A stretch of DNA of 64,000 bases from Symmetrospora coprosmae (Eukaryota; Basidiomycota; Cystobasidiomycetes; Symmetrosporaceae). Position numbers and translations under genes: made by a program. Shown here one piece after another: positions 6,367 through 42,929 of this stretch. Every line of letters starts with the position of its first letter. Position 1 is the first letter of the stretch. The notes under the pieces are model-generated. The model was not told where the DNA came from, did not search any database, and worked only from the letters and a program-made list of their open reading frames with translations. The DNA lies in contig VUYT01000023.1 of the NCBI GenBank assembly GCA_008802785.1, positions 245,150 through 309,149 on the forward strand, written 5' to 3'.

Positions 6367-8811
6367 ATGATGGCGCCGTCCTCCAGCAGCAGCAGCAGCC
6401 AGATCAAGTCGCAGACGACGAAGCTGCCTTCGTTCAAGAGGAACAGCGGCGGCAGCGCATCCACGCAGAGCAGCAGTTCGCCGAAGAAGCTGGATCCTTT
6501 GGCCGGCCAGCTCGCCTACTCCGGCAAAGGCGAGAAGATCGCCTTCGTCTTGCTCGCCACGACCCTGTCGCGTCTCCGAGCGGGATCAGCACCTAAAGAC
6601 GCCCTTGCACCGCCCATTACGCTTCGCTCGCGCTATACGCGCAGCTACTTTGTGCAGCACGGTGGGAGGGGAGCGTCTTCGCACACGATCATCGAGCGTC
6701 TTTGAGTGCGCCGTGCGACTACGCTCGCGACTCTCCTGCACATCCTGACGCGTGCTTTCCCGCCCACCCGCAGCTCCGTCCGCCTCAATGATGATGTCCA
6801 CCAGCACGGCTTCTACTGCCGCTTCTGCGAGGACAGGATTCCAGGCGTGCCCTCGCACTTCTGCATCACCTCCCTCTTTCCGCACTTTTCCGACGGGGGT
6901 TGCCCTGTTCTATCTGCCCTCCCGCCTTCCGATCTCGACACCTTCTTAAACGCGCTCAGAGCCGTAGATCCCTCTACCGGACAAGAGCTCGAGGATGAGA
7001 GAGTGGCCAGAGAGCTGAAGAGGTGCGTGCTCTTTTCGCGCGGAGGTTGAGTGCGGTTAGCGAAAGGCTGCGAGACTGATTGATGCTGCCCCACTCTTGC
7101 AGGCAGGAGACCGCCATCAAGCGGACACGCGACCACTGCTCCGATGAGGAAGATGCAGACCACGACAAGCACCAAGACAATTCGGACTCGGGCGACTCGG
7201 AATACTTCGACGGTGACTACGAGAAGCAAGCCGGAGCCGGTTTTCACGAGGCTAGCGCGTCCGGCCTGCCCTGCTTCAAGGCGTCTTACTCCGGCCCAGC
7301 ATCGACATCCGGTGCTGGCCATCAAGCCGAGCAGCACTCAGCGGACACACTCGCAGGCCAACTCGCCCGCGTTGCCAGAAATTACAGCTCTACCGACAAA
7401 TACGAGTACCAGCCCGTCAAGTTGCTGTCGGATACACTCAATGAGCTCAGACGCGGCGTGCAGCCAAAGGACGCTCTCACCGCTCGCATTGCGCCCGCTG
7501 CGTCCAAGCTTAGGGGCTATGTGATCGATCTCGATGCTATGACCGAGGCGGACAAGCACGCTACTTGCCTGTGAGGGAGGGGCGCTTATCGGACGCGCGG
7601 ATTGCTCGCATGCTGACCTCGTACGCTCGTCGTCTCCTACAGTAACTCTTGCAACCGTCGGGCACACGTCTACGGCCATTACTGCCGGCTCTGCTTCAAG
7701 ATCTTGACACCTTCAAAGGTATTTGCCTTCGGAATGATGTGGCAGCACCTGAAGAGCGGTAGCTGCTCGGGCCTGCAGGGAGCCGACCTCGAGCTGTTCC
7801 TGAAGGCAGTAAAGGACGTGGACAAGCGCTTCTACGACCGGATCAACGTGGCTCATACGAGCGACGCGTCGAAGATGTCAAAGAAGAGCGGCAAAGCGAG
7901 AAAGAAGGCGCGCACTTCGCCCGCCATTTCAGCTCGGCCGGACGACGAGCGCGCTGGAGAAGAGCAAGCGAGGCAACCGGTCGCGTCTACCTCGACCTTG
8001 CTGCCAGCCGACGCCCCGCCTCAGCAATCTGGCCCAGTGCCCAACTGGCGGCAGATCGAGATGGACCTTACTTACGGCGACGGCGACGACGACGAGGACG
8101 ACGACGACGACAGCGGCATCGACTACAGCGCCAGCTTTTCTGCCTCTTTCGGCTTGGATGCGCTCTTCGGCGGGACGAAGGTCGAGAACACGAGCATGGG
8201 TGCTAAGCCGCCCCTTGTCGCGCCGCACCCGAACCCAGGCCCGCCACATCTGCACGTCAAAGAGCAGTCACCGGACTTTGACACGCTGCTGAAAGAGTCG
8301 GTCGAGATGCTCGAGCGGCAGACAAAGGCGAGCGGGAGTGCGGCTTCTTCGGCCTCACCACGGCCACTCCCACCGCAGGCCGTCCAGGTCGAAGCAGTCA
8401 AGAAAAGCGTGTCGCCTACACCGCTTGACGTCGACCACATCAAAGAGGAGGAGTCAATGCTCCCGCACGACCGCTACCTGCCCACGCCTCGCATGTCAAC
8501 GCCTCCTGCTGCTCGACCATCCGACCACGCATCGCTACCGCCTTCTCTTGAGCCATACTCCGACCTCCTCGGCGCCGCTGGCGTCACCTGCGCGGGCGAT
8601 CTGCTCGATCTGCGAAGCCTGCTCGCAAGCCGGGCTGAGCTCGATGACCTGCTCGAGCAGGTTCACAAGGTGAGCTTTGGTGAACAGGAGCAGAGTCCTG
8701 GCTGGCGCTGACGATCGTATGCATGCGTAGAACCACGGCCACCTCGATCCTTTGTCCACCTTGCAGAAGTTCAGGCTCAAGTCGGTACTCGCGGCTTTCC
8801 TGAGCCTTTGA
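6367..8811 (+). CDS. Protein with a tandemly duplicated Cys/His module, about 710 aa
   Basis: The proposed exons are 6367-6674 (end uncertain), 6774-7022, 7103-7570, 7643-8669 and 8731-8811. The last three junctions are clean GT-AG introns with CTGAY branch sites. The first junction is weak: keeping frame requires the poor donor GC|GTCTTC at 6675. The protein holds two copies of one unit. Copy 1 has LDPLAGQL, then PKDAL, then HGFYCRFC, then LFPHFSDGGC and DLDTFLNALRAVD. Copy 2 has ADTLAGQL, then PKDAL, then YGHYCRLC, then MWQHLKSGSC and DLELFLKAVKDVD. Each unit therefore ends in a CxxC...H...C pattern that could bind zinc. The C-terminal half is disordered and acidic (GDDDEDDDDDSG), with a predicted helix at the very end. 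I do not know this family; a chromatin or transcription role is only a guess. Confidence 0.6.
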
Positions 8812-15957: not shown

Positions 15958-18582
15958 ATGGCAGCGAGCATGGCATCGCCGCGGACGTCCATCAGCATCC
16001 TCGATGCGCGCCTCAAGCTGCTCAGCATACCCAGGGCGGACCTGCGCGCGCAGAGCTATGCCATCACGCGCTGCTTGGCCTTCAGGAGGGAGCTATCGGC
16101 CCGAGGGTCAGTCAGTCCTGACGGGAGTGCTGAGTGCGATGGCGCGCGACGCCCGACGCTGATCCATCCATCTACACGCATACTCACCCAGCTCTGACAC
16201 ATTCTTCAACGTCACTCTCAACGAGGTCGAGCTCTCCATCTTTGCGGACTGCGAGCTCGTCAGCGCCGTCTTCGGGGATTGCCACACGCTCCCAGGAAGT
16301 GGAGACCTCTGCAACGCGGATGCCGGAATAGAGATCTCGGAGGATACGTGGGTCGCTCTCGAGGTCGAGCAGCACGACAGCATGATGGGCAGCGGGATCC
16401 GCCTGCGCGACATCTCGGCGCCCTTGGCTGCAGAGGGGATCTCTATCTTGTTCCTGAGCACCTACATCTCGGACGTGGGTCAAGCAGGGCAGACTGCAGC
16501 TATCGGCCAGTTCTCTCAGCTGACGCCTTCATATGCTGTCTCATCGCTTGCACACAGTTCCTGCTGGTAAGGCCGTGTTCCTAGACACGATGAGAGGCGA
16601 GTTGTGCGACATCCGCTCATCCGTGCATGAATGTACCCGCAGATCAAGGAGCACCGCCTAGAGCTCGTCATCAGCATCCTCGAGCGCGAGAGCCTGTACT
16701 CTCACGAAGGCGAAGCGCTCGCCTCGCCCTCTGCGAGCATCCACAACAACCTCAGCCCGCCTTTCGAGCTGCCTACTTCAAGCCGCTCTCACCCTTTCTC
16801 GACGCATATGTCGGGCGCGCACAGCCTGCCAGCGACTCTGCCGCGGTCACTCTCCACCGGCTCGGGTAGCGCCATACCCACCGAACCAACCGGTGACGCT
16901 TCTACAGACCGCGGCAGGCGGGAGCTTCAGGCAGCTAGTCCGTCGACGTCGCCTGCGAGGCGCCTTCAGCAACAGCAGCAACGGGATCGGAGCGCGTCTC
17001 TCATGGGCGTACTCCACGATGCACACTTCCAGCATCACGCCCTCCTGCCTGGCGCTCCGTCGCGCGCGTCAGCGCCGCCGCCCGCGTCCTCCACCACGTC
17101 GGCGAGTCAGCACTTTCTCTCCGGCTCACAGCGCCACACTTCAGGTTCGACGGCTACATACTTGAGAAATGCACTAGGCTCCGACGTCTCCGATGCGGCA
17201 CGAGAGTCCAGCACGCCCGCAACCCCGCGCTCGCCGGCGATGGCGCCGGTTGGCGCTGGGGCAGGCCACAACATCGAGAGCAGCATCTCAAGCCTGGACC
17301 TGGAAGACAGCAAACGTCCTCACACGTCCTCCTCTGGCGCTTCTTCAGGGCACAGCCAGAGTCGCCCGCGCTCGTACGAGAAGATGCAGGACTCGCTCCT
17401 GTCCGAGAGCAGCGCCGCGTCGGGTGTCATCGACAAGATTGTCCTCCTCCCCGACGAGCTCGTCTGCGTCGGCTTGAATACGCGCGCCGAGAAGGCATGG
17501 AAAGAGCAGGTGCTCCATGCCCTCTTCTACCCGGAGGACATCTTGCCCAGATCCAGTGCACAGCAGCAGCAGTCGGGAAAGCCGGCAGATAACCGACGCG
17601 GGCAGAGAGACGATGGTCGAAACTTCGACGACGAGAGCGCCAGTGACGGTGAGGCAGATGAGGAAGGTGAAGAGGCGGAGGAAGAGGGCGACGCCGTACC
17701 CATGACGGGATCGCCTCAGCGTGGCCTCTACTCGATCACCCCGACGCCGAGCCGGCCTATCCACTCTTTACAGCAGAGCATGCAGCGTACGTTCTCCGGG
17801 GCATCGCATGCGTCGGATGCAGCGCCCATTCTCCTGACTTCGACGGCGGAGTCCGAGTACCCTGTGAGCCGCTCGTCAATCCTGCCAGCTGCATCTCCAG
17901 CTCGTGCTGAATCAACCGCACCTCGCAGACTCCGTTCCTCTCCTTGACTCTGACATCGGAAGGAGCCTCCCTCATCGCCGACGTCCGCCTACTGCGCGCA
18001 CTGTTCGAAGGTGAAGACGAGTCCATCGTCTATGCGACCGGCCAGGGCGGTCTCGCCGGTGTGTGGGGCGGGGAAGAAGAGGACTTCCTCGGGCCTTGTC
18101 ACGATGACGACGCCAATCTCTCAGAAGATGCTCGGTTGGCGCCTCCGGCACTAAGCAACGACGAGGTGGGCCAGCTGGCATTTGACCACTCGGAGGAGTG
18201 GGAGGCTGTTGCATCCCATCCGGCAACACGAGCAGCTCGCGCGCAACTTCACGACAGCCAGCGCGTAACGGAAGAAGAAGAAGACCAAGACGAAGGTCGA
18301 CAGCTTTTCAAGTGCCTGCAGCTCGACCTGTCCAGCTTTGGCCTCGAAAAAGCTGGACTGGCCCACCAATTCTCGGGCCTGCTCACCAGCGAACGCATCA
18401 ACCTCATGTACTCTTCCACGTTTAGGTGAGGGCACTATTTGTGCACCTTTGCGGTGTATGGAACCGTCGGCTGACGTTTTATTCGGTATTCGGTACAACC
18501 CGTGCGCAGAACGGCCAACATCCTCGTTGCCAAGCGGCATATCCGCAAGGCGCGCAGAGCCCTCGAAACGGCGTCTCGCTGA
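15958..18582 (+). CDS. CASTOR/GATS-like ACT-domain protein, 743 aa
   Basis: Six exons (15958-16106, 16192-16474, 16558-16566, 16643-17863, 17929-18425, 18510-18582). Animal CASTOR proteins bind arginine through paired ACT domains and signal to TORC1 via GATOR2. Matching features: ISILDARLKLLSIPRADL at the N-terminus; FFNVTLNEVELSIFADCELV; then ISILFLSTYISDFLLIKEHR, where CASTOR has LSTYxxDFILV; and near the C-terminus LDLSSFGLEKAGLAHQFSGL followed by INLMYSSTFRTANILV. FLL is encoded by a 9-nt exon. Human CASTOR1 is about 330 aa. The extra length here is mostly a Ser/Pro-rich, disordered stretch at about 165-390 and an acidic stretch at about 440-500. Ligand and partner in fungi are not known to me, so arginine sensing is an inference. 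Confidence 0.78.
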
Positions 18583-20435: not shown

Positions 20436-23093
20436 ATGCACGACGACTTCCGCATTTTGGTTATCGGAGATGCGCGGTCTGGGAAGACGAGTTTGATCAA
20501 TGCGTTCCTGAAAGAGGCGCCGTTATCGAATGCGTCAGAGGCGTCCACATCGGAGGAGAGCTCGAACACAACGCTCCTGCCCGTCGTGAGCGTCCCGAGC
20601 CTGTACGGGGGCACGCTGTACATTGTCGACACGCCGTGTGCGTGTGCGCGCCGCGCCAGACTGCGCATATATCGTCGACAAGCGTGCTGCTGATATCGCT
20701 CTTTCGCGCTTCAGCTTCGTCGGAAGAAGAGCCGAGCAGGCTCAGCTTAAAGAGGAGCCGAGCCGACGCCATCATCCTCGTGTGCTCGCTCGAAGACGAA
20801 CAGGGAGACGGCATTGAACGCATCAAGACATACTGGGAGCCGGCACTCACGCGGCTCCGGACGCTGCATAGCCCTTCGCCTGAAAGGCGGCACATCCCCC
20901 TCATCCTCGCCGGGAGCAAGCTTGACCTCTGTCTCGATGCAGAGCCGAAGGGCCGTCAGCGCGCAGTGAGAGCAGCAAATCAACTCGTAGCGGACGGTGA
21001 GTTGGTCCCCGTCCGGTCCTCGAGGGCGCCGCGCCTCGCCATCTCCGCCCGCCCGTGCTGAGCTTCAGCCGACTGCAGGGTTCGCAGAGACGTACATCGA
21101 ATGCTCCGCAAAAGCCTATAGGAACATTTCTGAAGGTGCGCCTCCTTTTCTCTCTACCCTCGCCTGTCTGTCGGGGACTGATCCGGCTTACGCAACGCTT
21201 GACAATAACAGTGTGAGCCCCCGCTGCTAGCTTTGACGCTCGCCCCACTAGCACGGCCTGATGGAGTAATGCCTATTGGCCAGATTCTGGTACGTTCAAA
21301 AGGCGATCCGGTATCCCCATACTGCCCTCTACGACGCTTCGACCTCGGTAGGCGACCGGCACATGCTGTGCGTTCATTCACGCCAGCTCATGGCCCGCCT
21401 TACCTTCACCTGCCCGCAGAACCTCCGAACAGGTGCAGCGCGCGCATTTGATCGGATATTCCACATCCTCGCCCGCTTCTCAAATGTCCTCCATCCTGCT
21501 CACATCCAGAAACTGCAGCGTGACGTCTTTCAGAGCGACATGAGCCGCTCCGATACACTGCGCCTCTTCTCTCTGCCTGCGTCTCCTGCTCCCAACAGCG
21601 GCGATACGGAAAGAGGGGCGGGGACAATCTCGCTGGCGCAGTTCCACGGAATGATGCTGCGTCTGCTCCAACAGGGCAGCACGGAAAGCGTGTGGCGGAT
21701 ACTGCGCCGGTATGGATACGATACGCGCCTCGAGCTCGCGGAGGGATACGCAGCGCCCAAGCTGGACGTCGCAGCGAGCGACGCGTTGGATTTCAGCGAG
21801 GAGGGATGGCAGTTCCTGGGAGCGCTTTGGACGGATTTTGCGGATGTGAGTCGGCGCCCGCTTGCGCTTCGAGAGACGGGGTTGGGCTTATCTGGCGCAC
21901 ATGCGGCTCATCGGATGTCGCAGGACTCGGATGTGATCTCGCCGGAACAGTTAGGGAAGCTTTTTTCCATCACTCCGGGCTTGCTATTCTCGCCACACCA
22001 AGGGGGAGTGACGCAGCAAGCCTGGCTCGGGCGGTGGGCGTGAGTTGCGCGATCTCTAGAAGCAAGCTGAATTCCTTGTAGCGAGACTCGCCGCTCACAC
22101 ATTGGGAGTCCGTCAGCCACCTGCTCACGACGGATTACAAAAGGGCACTGCTGCAGATGGCGTATCTCGGCTTCGAGCCCGACGACACCAATGCCCGGCC
22201 TCGTAGCGAGAGATCCGATGCCCGAGCTCTGCCCTTCCCGAACGTGAAGCGTGCCGTGCGCGTTTTGAAGCGTAGCGGGTTGCACGCGACCGGCAAGCCT
22301 CCGTCCGCCTCGCGGAGTATTTACACCTGCCTGGTCGTGGGCGACGCGACGGCGCAAGGTCGCCTCGCTGATGCGCTGGCAAACGCAAAAGGGGGGCCTG
22401 TCTTGCCTCTTGAGGACGGGAGATTCGCGATGGTGGGTCCGCACAGCTGCGCGCAGGTGCCAAGGGCTGCGCAGATCGGTTACCCGGGTCGACTGACGCG
22501 ATGGCGCTGCATATAGCTCCAGGTAATAGACGACACTGAGCAGCTCTCGCCGAAGAAGCTCGCCGCTGCCGATCTCGTTATCTACCTCTTCCAGCGATTA
22601 CACGGCGCAATGGGACTTCAGTACCTAGAAGACCTGGGCAAAACAGCCACGGAGGACTTGCGCCAGCATCCCAGCATCGCCTTGGCCATCCTGCCATCTA
22701 GCGGGTCGGCTGCAAACACCGCCGGTGGTGACGCCGCTGATGCAGAGGAAACAGTCGCGGAGCGTGCAATGCTGGACAGGCTCGGAGTCGCGCCTGCCAG
22801 CGCAGCTGCAGTCGACCTCACAGAGCTGGCCGCAATCTCGGAGCGGGTCGAGGCGGCGCTGGCCACATCGTGAGTTGAAACATTGACCAGACCAAGTCCA
22901 GCTCGAGCGGGACGATGGAAACTGAGATTGCATCTCGCGGGCCTGCAGACGCAGCCGGTCCGCTCTCCTCGGCATTGACTCTGCAGGATCCGGGCTGTCA
23001 AAGATGGTCTTTCTTGCTGCAGCCCTGGCTGGCGTCTTTGTTTTCGTGGAGCGCGGCGGATGGTTGCAGCAGTATCTGGCACGATACCACTGA
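20436..23093 (+). CDS. gem1: Mitochondrial Rho GTPase Miro/Gem1, 651 aa, ten exons including a 1-nt exon
   Basis: Exons 20436-20637, 20715-20996, 21079-21135, 21212-21212, 21284-21347, 21420-21845, 21924-22039, 22117-22432, 22517-22869 and 22955-23093 sum to 1956 nt, exactly in frame. Miro is a tail-anchored outer-membrane GTPase controlling mitochondrial shape, inheritance and ER contacts. Order: GTPase 1 with P-loop GDARSGKTS, DTP, and GSKLDL in place of NKxD; the NISEVFWYVQKAI junction; EF-hand-linked helices (ESVWRILRRYGYDT; ISPEQLGKLFSITPG; WAHLLTTDYKRALLQMAYLG); a second GTPase-like domain (YTCLVVGDATAQGR) without a P-loop lysine; and a tail anchor KMVFLAAALAGVFVFVERGG. The 78-nt intron 21846-21923 has no stop and could be retained. 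Confidence 0.9.
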
Positions 23094-33282: not shown

Positions 33283-35811
33283 ATGCACGAGCACAATGCG
33301 AGGGACTACAAGCACGCTACGGCGGCCGATTGGTTTGTAGAGAGCTTCAGTACGTGGCCGCTCCCTCGCCCTGCAGCCGACGGGCCATTCGTAGCTGACG
33401 CTTCCTCCTGGCGCCCCGAAAAGTCGGGACGATCGCCTCCCGTCTTCACCCAAAGGTGCACTACCCCGAGGAGGATCCCAACTGGGAGGTCCCTGAGAAG
33501 TACCTCAGGACCAAGGGCAAGCCCGCCGACTCGTGGAAGAGCGAGAAGCCGAACAGGCAGAACAGCCGCAACTCGACTGCCAGCTCTGACACGGTTGTCG
33601 GTGGCGACCAGCCCGCTGAAGGTGCTGCAAAGAACGAGAAGAAGGGAAAGCAGCAGTCCGGCGAGGAGGCTCAGGCTCAAGACCAAGACCAGGATCAGGA
33701 CCAGGAGGCAGGCTCTGGCAATGACCAGTCCGAGGAGGAGGAGGACCCCAATCTCGTCACCTGGTACGGACCCAACGACCCAGCCAACCCGCAAGACTGG
33801 TCCGTCTTCAAGAAGTGCGCAGTCACGGCACAGCTCTGCCTCCTTACCTTCTCCATCTACATTGGATCCGCCATCTACTCGCCTGGATATGAATCGCTAA
33901 ACGAATCTTTCGGCGTTTCCTCCGTCGTCGCCACTCTCGGTCTTACGCTTTTCGTGTTCGGCTGTGAGTAACGGCGTTCTCACCCAAGCAAGTCTTTCAG
34001 ACACCAAGGATCCTCATTCTAATCCACTTGCGTCCTGCGCTCAGACGGCATTGGGCCTCTCTTCCTCTCGCCTCTCTCCGAGATTCCGGCTATTGGACGC
34101 AACCCTCCCTACGTCATCACTCTCCTCATCTTCGTCGTGCTGCAGGCTATTTCCGCCAACGTTACCAACTTTGCCGGCCTCATGGTCTTGCGATTCCTCG
34201 CTGGTTTCATCGGCTCGCCCGTTCTCGCTACCGGTGGAGCCTCCCTCGGAGATCTGTTCTCCCCTAAGACCCGACCTTACGCTATTGGTATCTGGGGTCT
34301 CGCGGCTATCCAAGGACCGGTTCTCGGACCCCTGCTCGGTGGTTTGTGAGTTGTGCATCGCCGAGTCTGTCGAATCGCTGGCCCAGACTGACTTGAGTGC
34401 ACGCCGCCGCACACAGCGCCATCCAGTCCCAGAACACCATGATCAATGAGTCGTGGCGGTGGGCTTTCTATATCCTTCTAGTAAGCAGTTTCGTAGTATC
34501 TGGCAGCTCTATGCAAGCGTCTGATCAAGCCTCCACTCTCCAGTGGCTCGACGGTTTCTGCCTGCTTGTCCTGGCATTCTGCTTCCCGGAGACTTCCTCC
34601 GAGAACATTCTTCTCCGACGGGCCAAGCGACTCCGAAAGCGCACGGGTAACGAGAACCTTCGAAGCCAGGGCGAAATCGACAGCAGCAAGATGACCGCCA
34701 AGGACATTGTCAAGCAGACAATGTGGATGCCACTCTACCTGTCCATCTCGGAGCCCATCTGCTTCAGTCTCAACCTCTACATCGGTCTCGTCTACTCGAT
34801 TCTGTGAGCACCACTCTGCTTGATGCGCGAGTGAGCGTAGCTGACGTGACGCGGGATCAACAGATACGTGTGGATCGAGTCTTTCCAGCTGGTGTTCGTT
34901 CAGATTTATGGCTTCAACCTCGGTCTTAATGGCTGTGCTTACCTGGGTCTGGTAGGTCCTTCTGACCCGAGCCTCGGGCGGGCGCAGAAGATTAATCTCT
35001 GCTTCAATAGGTCGTCGGAGGTGTCCTTGCCTATATCGGCTTTGCTTACTATAACCACCGCGTCACTATCCCGGAGCTGCGCAAGAACAAGGGACAGATT
35101 CAGCCGGAAAGGCGTCTCGTCGTGGCAATGATCGGAGGTATCCTCCTGCCCCTCTGCATCTTCCCCTTCGGCGCGTCCTCTTCGCCTCGCACACACTGGT
35201 CGGCTCCAATCATCTTCAGCTCCTTGTTCGGCGCAGGCGCATTCCTCATCTTCCAGTACGTTGGTCGTCTTGTCCGCTCGCAAAGTCGACATGTCTGACC
35301 CGTCACTGCCTTCTTCACCTTCAGGGGTGTCTGTGAGTATGGATCATGCGGCATCTCGATAGTCGATAGAGGCTGATGACGCATCTCTCGCTAGTGAACT
35401 ACCTCGGAGACGCGTACGCAAGCAAGCAGGCGTCTGTCCTCGCCGGCAACGACTTCTTCAGGTGCGTGTCGTCACCAGGTCGCAAAGGAGCTTGATCACT
35501 GACATGCACAACCACCCTCTCTACACCCGCTGTAGGAGCATGATGGGCGGAGCCTTCCCTCGCAAGTCTCTTCTTGCTCGACATTCACGATTTCTTGCCG
35601 GACTCAGCTGACGAGTCGGCCCTTCTCTTGCTGTCCCACAGTGTTTGCCCCGGCTCTCTTTAACAATCTCGGCGGACCACCCGATTTCCCCGTCCTGTAC
35701 GGGTGTATCTTGCTCGGTGGCCTTACATTAGTCTTCGTGCCGCTGCCTTTCCTTCTGCACCGGTACGGCAAGAAGCTGCGTCAATCGAGCAAGAACGCCA
35801 GCCACATCTGA
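33283..35811 (+). CDS. DHA1-family major facilitator transporter, 608 aa, eleven exons
   Basis: Exons 33283-33349, 33433-33963, 34045-34345, 34417-34480, 34544-34803, 34864-34951, 35011-35255, 35325-35332 (8 nt), 35395-35461, 35536-35561 (26 nt) and 35642-35811 sum in frame to 608 aa. An acidic cytosolic tail of about 150 residues (with QDQDQDQDQE) precedes 12 expected membrane helices. Family marks of fungal drug:H+/polyamine antiporters: VTWYGPNDPANPQDWSVFKK, SPLSEIPAIGRNPPYVITLL, RFLAGFIGSPVLATGGASLG, GPVLGPLLGGF, LNYLGDAYASKQASVLAGND and AFPLFAPALFNNLGGP. The 8-nt exon and a GC-AG intron (C|GCAAGT at 35562) are both needed to recover the last two motifs. The gene is convergent with the Zn2Cys6 gene. 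Substrate unknown. Confidence 0.93.
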
Positions 35812-39536: not shown

Positions 39537-40856
39537 ATGTCGGCCTTCTCGATGAAGTGGAAACCCGACGCCGGCGAGATGGCAAAGGAGCGTGAAGCTG
39601 TTGTTCGTGAAGCAATGAGCGGGCATCCTTCAGGTCCACCGAGAATGGACGGAGCAGCTCCGTCGAGACCCTTATTGGGACCCATCCCTGGCATCCTACC
39701 GCCCAGAAGGGTGGAGGAGGAGACCCAGCGCTCTGAAAGGAACGACGCAGCGCCCTACTCGTTCAACATGAATTGGCGTCCGCCGCCGGTTGACGACAAG
39801 GAGTCGCCAGCTCGGCCCATACCGGCACCGACATCCTCCAACGCGGCTGTTCCCGACAGAGACCCAAGGCAGCGCCGCTTCCGCGCCTCTCTCTGCGCTA
39901 CGTCGCTAGAAGTCGCCTGCCTCGCCGATGGAGGCGCTCTCAGCTGTACGAGCCCTTCAGGCATGGTGTGCTGCCTCGAGCGCATGGCCGACAGCCGCTG
40001 GGGTGTTCAGATCCATCCCAGTCGCGCACGCCTTTCACGCGAGGAGACGCACGACATGGCTCGTGCGTTATATGCCTGTGCATACGCTGTGATGGCTAGC
40101 CCGCACCAACCGGGATACATCCAGCTCGAGCACGCAGACAAGTCCACAAACCTCGAGAACGCCCTGGCAATCTTTGGCCCGCCTGCGGACCTCTCCATGT
40201 CCATCACCTCATCCGTCGTGCTTCAGCTCTTCGCGCTAGCCGATGCTCGCTTCGCCTGCGTTCCTGCACCCTACGTAGCTACGACGTCGTTCCGCAGCGG
40301 TATTCAGCCCACTTCCCATCCGCTGCGAGTGCCCGTGCCGCAGGGCGAGCTGTATAGCCGGTGGGATGCATCCATCAGTGACTACGTCGTTCTCACGGGC
40401 AGCCGGGAGAAGCACCAACTCGAGATCACTGCGGGACCCAGGGGGCAGAGGCCGGATACGGAGAATGTTTTGACAGCAAGAGTCGACTGGCTCCTGGAGG
40501 CGTCTGGAGTGGCAGGTCAGGAGAGCGATGACTATGATAGGGGTGAGCAATGCTGCCGGTATACCGGCGTGTGTTGCCTTGCTGAAGCGCCGTCTCCCCC
40601 AGAACTTGTCGTGGAGGCAATCTCCGAGAAGCATGACGACGAGATCCAACGAGCCTGCTTAAAGTCTCTCGTCCACTACCTCCTCATCGACGAACCGCGC
40701 ACCAGGAGGATCGTCTGCAGCATTCCTGCGAAGGCCAAGTCCGAACCTTCTGTCGAGGCCATACTAGCTGGCCTGGGCTTCCAGCCGGAGTCAGGTGTGG
40801 ACAACAAGTACACTCTACGACGCAATGCCTTCTGGCAGCGCGTCAGTTCGCTTTAG
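39537..40856 (+). CDS. Siderophore-type N-acyltransferase candidate (GNAT/AlcB-like), 419-439 aa
   Basis: The open frame is 439 codons. A 60-nt GTGAGC...CCCCCAG intron (40543-40602, branch GCTGAAG) is probably removed, giving 419 aa and deleting a Cys-rich insert. The C-terminal part is the basis of the call. LKSLVHYLLIDEPRTRRIVC, then EAILAGLGFQPES and YTLRRNAFW, follow the pattern of hydroxamate siderophore acyltransferases of the IucB/AlcB/SidF type (D-P-R-x-R-R-I/V-V, then G-F, then a final F-W/F-F). The middle part (HDMARALYACAYAVM) also fits. The N-terminal 100 residues are polar with two WKPDAGEM / NWRPPPVDD-like repeats (MKWKPD, MNWRPP). No other siderophore gene is visible here. Another GNAT substrate is possible. 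Confidence 0.5.
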   Translation: MSAFSMKWKPDAGEMAKEREAVVREAMSGHPSGPPRMDGAAPSRPLLGPIPGILPPRRVEEETQRSERNDAAPYSFNMNWRPPPVDDKESPARPIPAPTSSNAAVPDRDPRQRRFRASLCATSLEVACLADGGALSCTSPSGMVCCLERMADSRWGVQIHPSRARLSREETHDMARALYACAYAVMASPHQPGYIQLEHADKSTNLENALAIFGPPADLSMSITSSVVLQLFALADARFACVPAPYVATTSFRSGIQPTSHPLRVPVPQGELYSRWDASISDYVVLTGSREKHQLEITAGPRGQRPDTENVLTARVDWLLEASGVAGQESDDYDRGEQCCRYTGVCCLAEAPSPPELVVEAISEKHDDEIQRACLKSLVHYLLIDEPRTRRIVCSIPAKAKSEPSVEAILAGLGFQPESGVDNKYTLRRNAFWQRVSSL

Positions 40857-41154
40857 ATTGTGCTGTGCACTCCGTCAGATGAGACCGCCATTTCAGCCTC
40901 CGCTCAGCCAAACAGCATCGTCGCCTTGCAACGGTCGTTGAGTCGTCAAGATCTGCGGGATTCAGCGGAACTCCACTAGCCGGAAGGCCCCCGGCCGTCT
41001 TCGTGGCGCTTCCTCTCGTTCTTATCGACCGCATGCTGCCCGGCCCGGCTTCGGCACTTCTGGTCGCGCCGCAGCACCCTCGTCAGCTCCCGCTTCCAAG
41101 CTGCGCTTCTGCATCTCACCAACCTCGCTCGTAGACGCAGTCGCAGTCGCATCC
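40857..41154. other. Intergenic, 298 bp
   Basis: This is the 3' flank of the acyltransferase candidate and the promoter of the next gene on the same strand. Nothing recognised. Confidence 0.4.
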
Positions 41155-42929
41155 ATGCATCTGCGCAGCCTCCTGGCTGTTCTCACACTCGTTTATCACC
41201 TTGCTGGCCTTGGGTGAGGGGTCCAGTCACTGATCATTCTGCTGACCAGCCCGGACTCAGTAAGCTGACTACGCGACTCGGCGTGGTCAGAGTACATGCG
41301 CAAACCACGGCCGCGACTTCCGATGCGGCAATATCTTATGGAGGAGCCTGGAGTGAGCGGCAGCTTACATCGAGCTCCTCTGCTCGTGCCTCAGCTAAGC
41401 GCGCCTCCTCATCGCCTCGTATAGCGTTGACAGAAGGCAAGGCCTCGCACATCACTTCCGAAACTGGCTCGACCGCCACCTTCACCTTTACCGTGCGTCT
41501 TATCCTCTCCTCAAGCAGGCTGGATAGCCAATTGAATGCCATGTATGGATCCACAGGGCACATCCGTCCGGTTCCGCTCGACACGAAGCAGCACGCAGGG
41601 TATAGAGCGCATCACTCTCGACGGCTAGAGTTCGCCCGTGGACTGCTCATGGCCGGACGCGAGCGTGTCTTGGGCGACCGTGACGGTCTTCCAACGGGAC
41701 AACCTGCCCAACACGCGGCACACGCTCGTCTTTGAAAAGACATCCGACATCAGCAAGGTTGCCGTCGTCTGGTGAGCATGGCTTCGTCACATTGCGGATT
41801 GTGGCATGGAACTGATGTACATTGCCATTTAGGGATTTCATCTACGACACGCAGGTCGCCGCGGTGGCGCAAAGACCGACTACCAGGGACCTCCCTGCTC
41901 CCGCGACCTCTTCAACAGTGAGACCGTCTGCGGCAGCTACGAGCGAGAGCAGCGCGCTTCTCTTGCAGTCGCCAACCTCCTCTCCTCCCGCTCCGATCCA
42001 GTCTTCGTCGTCAGCATCTGCAAATTCGGCAGCGGTCGCGGTCACCTCAGCGTCTTCGTCATCTGAGAGCAGTTATGGACGAGACACAACGATCATCCCG
42101 CCGACACCAACAGCGTCTTCGATCGTGTCGTCAGCCGCGCTAGACAATACAACGCAAGCCACGGGCCAGGCTCCCATCAGCGCTGAGCCAGTCTCAGCGA
42201 ATGCGACTGCCGCGGGGCAGAATGGAGGGACGGCGGCATCTCCTGTAGCCACAAGTACAGCGAGTGTGGGCGTACAAGCGGAAGTGGAGGACGACAACAA
42301 GAGCAGCAACAGCCTCACGGTCGGCCTGGGCGCAGGCGCAGGAGCCCTGGCCTGCATTCTTGCCGTCCTCCTCGTTCTGCTTTGTCTGCGCAAGCGCAGG
42401 CAACGACCTTGGCACGACGAGCGGGGCGCAGTCATGCTCGATGATGGATCCCCGTCGCTCGCTTCTTTCCGCAGGGCCGCTATGCCGGGTGGGAACGCGA
42501 TGCAGCAGATTAGGGTAGGAGGAGAGGCTGTCTCTATCTTCTCAAATCGGACTCTGGATGCATCGGAGGCGACGCACGCATCTTCGAGTGCCCCCACGCC
42601 GGCGCAGGAGTATGCGAGGATAGCCATGCTGCAGGTCGCGGGGAGTGGGACGCGCACAGAGGATGCAGGTGCGTTCAGGCATTACATCTCGCCAAGATCA
42701 GGCAGGACCTGCCTAATAATGTTCATCCTCTGCCTGCCCAGATGAACCGCCAGTACCTTCGGGCCGCAGCATGCGCCCACCAACGTACATTTCTATTTCT
42801 ACATTGGATGCACGGCAGCAGCGTCATGCAGTACCCTTGCCAGGCCAATTTGGCGTGTACGTGGAGGGCGCATCCCGCTCGATCTTTGAGAAGGGCGGAG
42901 AGAAGGGACGACGGCCGATGTCGACGTAG
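41155..42929 (+). pseudogene. Single-pass membrane protein gene interrupted by one in-frame TAG (472-codon frame)
   Basis: Exons 41155-41213, 41291-41352, 41434-41492, 41557-41771, 41833-42668 and 42742-42929 sum to 473 codons. The first exon is a signal peptide (MHLRSLLAVLTLVYHLAGLG). The lumenal domain is the sugar-binding-like fold common in fungal membrane proteins: ISYGGAWKGKASHITSETGS, TATFTFTGTSVRFRSTRSS, IERITLDG, then WATVTVFQRDNLPNTRHTLV and DFIYDT. A Ser/Thr-rich stalk, one membrane helix (GAGALACILAVLLVLLCLRK) and a cytosolic tail follow. Codon 84, directly after ITLDG, is TAG (41626-41628), while the frame is open and homologous on both sides. No splice site removes it. It may be a fresh pseudogene, a readthrough stop or a base-calling error; all other parts look intact. 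Confidence 0.65.

Follow-up and report, generated by a model that had tools for sequence, protein, structure and literature searches.

A candidate one-nucleotide exon inside a valine codon of the Miro/Gem1 gene of Symmetrospora coprosmae

One-nucleotide exons are known, but they are very rare. The APC11 gene of Arabidopsis and other plants contains one (PMC4674806, PMC8831610), and plant VPS55 contains another (PMC8831610, 2022). In CYP621A of Fusarium species, a one-nucleotide exon is accompanied by RNA reads, and its authors count it as the second example known and the first from a fungal gene (PMC12940212, 2026). A first-pass annotation of the DNA studied here had called such exons almost unknown, with one reported, in Arabidopsis APC11; these later papers have made that statement outdated. 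One-nucleotide exons are also described in placozoan mitochondrial cox1 (PMC5436844) and fungal mitochondrial rnl (PMC12308204), but these cases are mitochondrial, and the introns flanking the rnl exon are group II rather than spliceosomal. Annotated exons of 1 bp that lack experimental support have been noted as well (PMC3064661). Among open-access PMC papers, no one-nucleotide exon was found for a basidiomycete or for a Miro gene.

The Miro/Gem1 gene on a 64,000-nucleotide stretch of the Symmetrospora coprosmae genome (the window) offers a strong candidate for another such case. The probability that the T at position 21212 is a one-nucleotide exon is put at about 0.88, a figure that is a weighed judgment and not a computed posterior. 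This is the reading best supported by junction enumeration, a self-trained splice model, profile scores, and chance controls, and the signals that suggest splicing across 21136-21283 are well beyond chance. The coordinates are collected in Table 1.

Table 1. The Miro/Gem1 gene and the predicted parts of the one-nucleotide exon region, in window positions
Feature	Position	Strand	Basis and remarks
Miro/Gem1 coding region	20436-23093	+	junction enumeration, Pfam, genome-wide EF_assoc_2 search
Exons, first five	20436-20637, 20715-20996, 21079-21135, 21212, 21284-21347	+	
Exons, last five	21420-21845, 21924-22039, 22117-22432, 22523-22869, 22949 (or 22955)-23093	+	
Exon 3	21079-21135	+	ends ...AKAYRNISE plus one base G, phase 1; aligned to PDB 9e2p
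First intron (predicted)	21136-21211	+	76 nt, GTGCGC...TAACAG, branch CTGAT 21178-21182
One-nucleotide exon T (predicted)	21212	+	middle base of Val codon G-T-A; chosen by the self-trained model
Second intron (predicted)	21213-21283	+	71 nt, GTGAGC...GGCCAG, branch CTGAT 21258-21262
Exon 5	21284-21347	+	starts A/TTC TGG TAC, encodes FWYVQKAIRYPHTALYDASTS

The case begins with a conflict of phase. The third exon ends AAC ATT TCT GAA G at 21135 and the fifth starts A TTC TGG TAC at 21284, and their phases differ by one base. The letters at the junctions are TTTCTGAAG/GTGCGC at 21135/21136, AACAG/T/GTGAGC at 21211/21212/21213, and CCAG/ATTCTGG at 21283/21284. Since both flanks of the gap encode conserved Miro sequence that aligns gap-free to known Miro, the missing base sits between NISE and FWYVQKAI. 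The only AG-N-GT in the gap that leaves at least 49 nt for both introns is AACAG/T/GTGAGC, and with its T as an exon the protein reads gap-free as NISE-V-FWYVQ. There is a single base with an AG upstream and a GT downstream, it is the base needed to restore the frame of a conserved protein, and both introns have lengths and signals normal for the genome, with one weak acceptor (6.3rd percentile). The one-base conflict, the AACAG/T/GTGAGC motif with its introns of 76 and 71 nt, and the valine codon G-T-A had all been proposed in the first-pass annotation, and the letters confirm them. Its further remark that Miro proteins have ISEVF here stands for ISE and for F; animal Miro proteins have ISELF. 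Fungal Miro may have V at this position.

The ten exons join in frame to a coding sequence of 1956 nt (651 amino acids), and each of the nine introns is GT-AG and 71-90 nt long. A tandem acceptor, CTGCAG/ACGCAG (window 22943-22954, + strand), precedes the last exon. The total of 1956 nt claimed earlier is obtained when this exon starts at 22949; a start at 22955 gives 1950 nt, which is also in frame and differs by two residues. In the spliced product, Pfam finds the N-terminal Ras-like GTPase and the EF-hand-associated domains of Miro/Gem1, with Ras (36.8 bits) and EF_assoc_2 (39.6 bits) above their cut-offs and EF_assoc_1 (28.2 bits) just below its cut-off of 29.1. Residues 2-403 match Mitochondrial Rho GTPase 1 (PDB 9e2p, E 1.7e-32), and the one EF_assoc_2 match in the whole genome (20.05 Mb, 77 contigs) is this gene. 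Beyond residue 407, the Pfam search reported no match, the C-terminal GTPase included. The second GTPase region (window 22117-22869, + strand), which has no Pfam match, carries the loop GDATAQGR where a P-loop is expected, and it may be degenerate. Judged by eye, MVFLAAALAGVFVFVERGGWLQQYLARYH looks like a C-terminal membrane anchor. Two protein searches for fungal Miro orthologs returned three animal proteins and none, respectively, and a scan of the exon at 21420-21845 against viral contigs gave no match. Among the best 120 of 8000 listed matches, an exon of RPB2 from this genome shared 92% identity with three metagenome proteins, 84% with Rhodotorula toruloides, 81% with Puccinia triticina, and 80-83% with the remaining Microbotryomycetes that carry names; the named genera at 80-84% include Rhodotorula, Leucosporidium, Phenoliferia, and Sporobolomyces. 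These identities place the fungus in Pucciniomycotina, close to Microbotryomycetes.

Measured against 383 predicted introns (gem1 excluded), the splice signals of both introns are ordinary for the genome. The first donor, GTGCGC, ranks at the 34.5th percentile, the acceptor paired with it at the 42.3rd, and the second donor, GTGAGC, at the 48.8th. The weak acceptor is that of the second intron, GGCCAG, and it is used by every form that keeps FWYVQKAI. The CTGAT branch sites, 30 nt before the end of the first intron and 22 nt before that of the second, are both at the 56.9th percentile. An earlier suggestion that each intron has a branch site holds in that both have CTGAT, but the CTTGACA named for the first intron is only about 9 nt from its end and has been set aside for the CTGAT whose A is at 21181. 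The median predicted intron is 72 nt, close to the two lengths here; a single intron of 148 nt would fall at the 94.8th percentile. A search for U6atac, a mark of minor (U12-type) splicing, gave no match in the genome, and 14 control genomes were equally silent, so the result is uninformative.

A gene model that trains itself, without homology, was also applied. It combines a codon-phase Markov chain, matrices for donors (GT only), acceptors, and branch sites, and intron lengths; it starts from guessed matrices, and its exon-length prior places no penalty on a length of 1. Trained on the window plus 200 kb of another contig, C1 (264 kb together), it predicted 86 genes containing 335 internal exons and 418 introns, with a median intron length of 72 nt, and learned the donor GTG(A/C)GT, the acceptor CAG, and the branch CTGAY. 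The exon at 21212 was placed unprompted and was the sole exon of that size. The first run left the 72-nt intron at 21348-21419, which is in frame and without a stop, as exon. After retraining without Miro/Gem1, all ten exons were recovered, the last from 22955, and the one-nucleotide exon scored 6.0 nats above the best path without it (5.5 nats with its acceptor alone barred). Training on C1 only, whose 249 internal exons are all longer than 6 nt, gave the one-nucleotide exon again, at +4.9 nats, with the end of exon 8 placed at 22255. The exon was still chosen when frameshifts were permitted at 9.2, 11.5, or 13.8 nats. As a model estimate made without homology, the margin of 4.9-6.0 nats can be called modest.

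How often such an arrangement arises by chance was gauged from three sets of 5000 control gaps (dinucleotide shuffles, composites of real intron halves, and random genomic 148-mers) and from 40 predicted introns no shorter than 110 nt. A size-compatible AG-N-GT that leaves each intron 49 nt or more is by itself common: it is present in 290, 498, and 727 of the 5000, respectively, and in 4 of the 40. With T as the base, the counts fall to 61, 79, 139, and 0. Two shuffles, and no other gap, had an acceptor and a donor that each equalled or exceeded the observed one in strength. Three composites, and no other gap, reached the summed acceptor, donor, and branch score (3 of 15,000 control gaps). 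The full set of signals together with T occurred in none of the 15,000 gaps or the 40 predicted introns.

Other ways of splicing the gap were enumerated with GT and GC donors, AG acceptors, and introns of at least 30 nt. Three single introns keep the frame, with donors GC 21140 (144 nt), GT 21170 (GTCGGG, 114 nt), and GC 21197 (87 nt). All three add letters after TCTGAAGGTGC and before ATTCTGG, and the proteins become NISE-GA-F, NISE-GAPPFLSTLACL-F, and a longer form, each with at least one residue added between NISE and F, where known Miro is gap-free. Two internal-exon solutions have introns of at least 40 nt, and both use the T at 21212; the second one has its donor at 21166, a 46-nt intron, and added residues. 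Only introns 21136-21211 and 21213-21283 unite normal lengths with NISE-V-FWYVQ. The earlier assertion that no other donor/acceptor pair could be found therefore holds only for good sites and gap-free proteins, since the enumeration gave four alternatives that insert residues. Scored with a profile built from three animal Miro proteins, the form with the one-nucleotide exon reaches 144.6 bits, compared to 137.7 for GC 21140, 129.1 for GT 21170, and 121.3 for GC 21197; the two fallback forms of the model reach 110.3 and 98.3. The GC 21140 form trails by just 6.9 bits, and GC-AG introns are described beside microexons in the bglA genes of basidiomycete yeasts (PMC9142197). However, ranked among the 383 introns, the donor at GT 21170 (GTCGGG) is at percentile 0.8 and that at GC 21140 (GCCTCC, judged on positions +3 to +6) at 0.0, and a single intron whose donor is weak or GC is very unlikely. 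Retention of the first intron (44.0 bits, stop at residue 238) or the second (43.7 bits, stop at residue 182) and skipping of the T (42.1 bits) are ruled out by frame and profile score. Full-length Miro needs the T because its omission shifts the frame and brings a stop at residue 243. In a [D1,2] stwintron, intron 21136-21211 would interrupt an external intron at its donor, G^TGTGAGC, and the T would be removed as well. The letters permit this, as G 21135 and T 21212 join to GTGTGAGC, but with both introns and the T gone the product is out of frame, stops at residue 212, and scores 47.2 bits against 144.6, which makes the stwintron very improbable.

The phase conflict could also lie in the DNA itself. 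If a base were missing from the assembly or the strain beside 21135 or 21284, that single absence would account for the conflict, and the gap would be one 148-nt intron, a size that does occur (16 of the 383 predicted introns measure 130-170 nt). Against this, one-base errors look rare because the model, when allowed frameshifts, used just three at 9.2 nats or one at 11.5 nats in 145,920 coding nt, none of them at 21135-21284. In other genes, deleting one base next to a composite intron of 148 nt led the model to a false one-nucleotide exon in 4 of 600 trials (and to an exon of 2-6 nt in 29 of 600), compared to 535 of 600 planted one-nucleotide exons that it recovered. The missing base would also need a long intron that happens to contain so good an exon, and its chance is slim, though above that of a single intron with a poor donor. 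It is hardly credible that the gene is decaying and the conflict is a true disabling mutation: the protein is divergent, and its C-terminal GTPase domain has no Pfam match, but this is the sole Miro detected in the genome, and its remaining exons join in frame via GT-AG introns.

With the T as an exon, one valine codon would hold two short introns of ordinary U2 type, at 21136-21211 and 21213-21283, parted by a single base. Short introns are recognized across the intron, and both of these would probably be recognized by intron definition. They would be removed sequentially because factors at AACAG and GTGAGC would collide on a one-nucleotide exon. Either order of removal would leave an ordinary second step, at ...GAAGT/GTGAGC or at AACAG/TATTCTGG. 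Neither intermediate should be odd, since T is common enough as the last exon base (78 of 391 predicted junctions) and as the first (60 of 391). A like argument was made for APC11 by Guo and Liu (PMC4674806). The T exon and the [D1,2] stwintron coincide in sequence. With the first intron removed, GTGTGAGC has two donors 2 bases apart, of which GTGAGC leads to Miro and GTGTGA to the stop at residue 212. There is an outside chance that one-nucleotide exons and stwintrons interconvert through a 2-nt slide of the donor and that the site is a splicing switch for the amount of Miro.

The model predicted six other internal exons of 10 nt or less (4, 8, 9, 9, 10, and 10 nt). An 8-nt exon, GGGTGTCT (window 35325-35332, + strand), belongs to the MFS transporter gene at 33283-35611, in which an MFS_1 match (135 bits, residues 160-554) spans it; its place inside this match suggests that small exons are real in the genome. 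One 9-nt exon (16558-16566, + strand; gene 15958-18582) is inside an ACT domain (ACT_7, residues 99-162), and the other (41557-41565, + strand) is in a lower-scoring gene (40092-42929) and has the weak donor GTCCGG. The 4-nt exon (6774-6777) has a poor donor and lies in the predicted gene 6367-8811 (+ strand), which also holds the sole frameshift used at 11.5 nats; this gene possibly has a missed intron or a frame problem.

If confirmed, the Miro/Gem1 exon would be a further independent example of an exon of minimum size, from a lineage distant from plants and Fusarium and in a gene detected as a single copy. It would also support the idea that, because short introns are recognized as units, the spliceosome can cope with any exon size. 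Such genes can be mis-framed by automatic annotation, and a genome-wide search for more one-nucleotide exons is practical because the model recovers most of the planted ones.

Among the known systems, Fusarium CYP621A shares the phase-1 end, the phase-2 start, and a gap more than twice the median intron (PMC12940212). That exon, however, is a G in an ascomycete P450, conserved across 20-24 genes and seen in RNA reads, whereas here it is a T in a basidiomycete Miro gene, in a single genome and predicted from DNA. Plant APC11 and VPS55 likewise have a single exonic nucleotide flanked by two spliceosomal introns; the frame requires it, and annotation missed it (PMC4674806, PMC8831610). The Arabidopsis APC11 interval is larger, at 422 nt, and the plant exons are conserved across land plants and proven by RNA-seq, RT-PCR, and mutants, while the Miro/Gem1 exon is predicted from sequence. 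In fungal [D1,2] stwintrons, too, two U2 introns are removed successively, and the internal intron ends beside the T of a potential donor, but stwintrons retain no base between the introns, and at Miro/Gem1 that breaks the frame (PMC12403724, PMC9024468). The bglA genes of basidiomycete yeasts resemble this gene in being intron rich, with short introns (50-139 bp in four genes) and very small exons, of which the smallest are 5 and 6 bp (PMC9142197).
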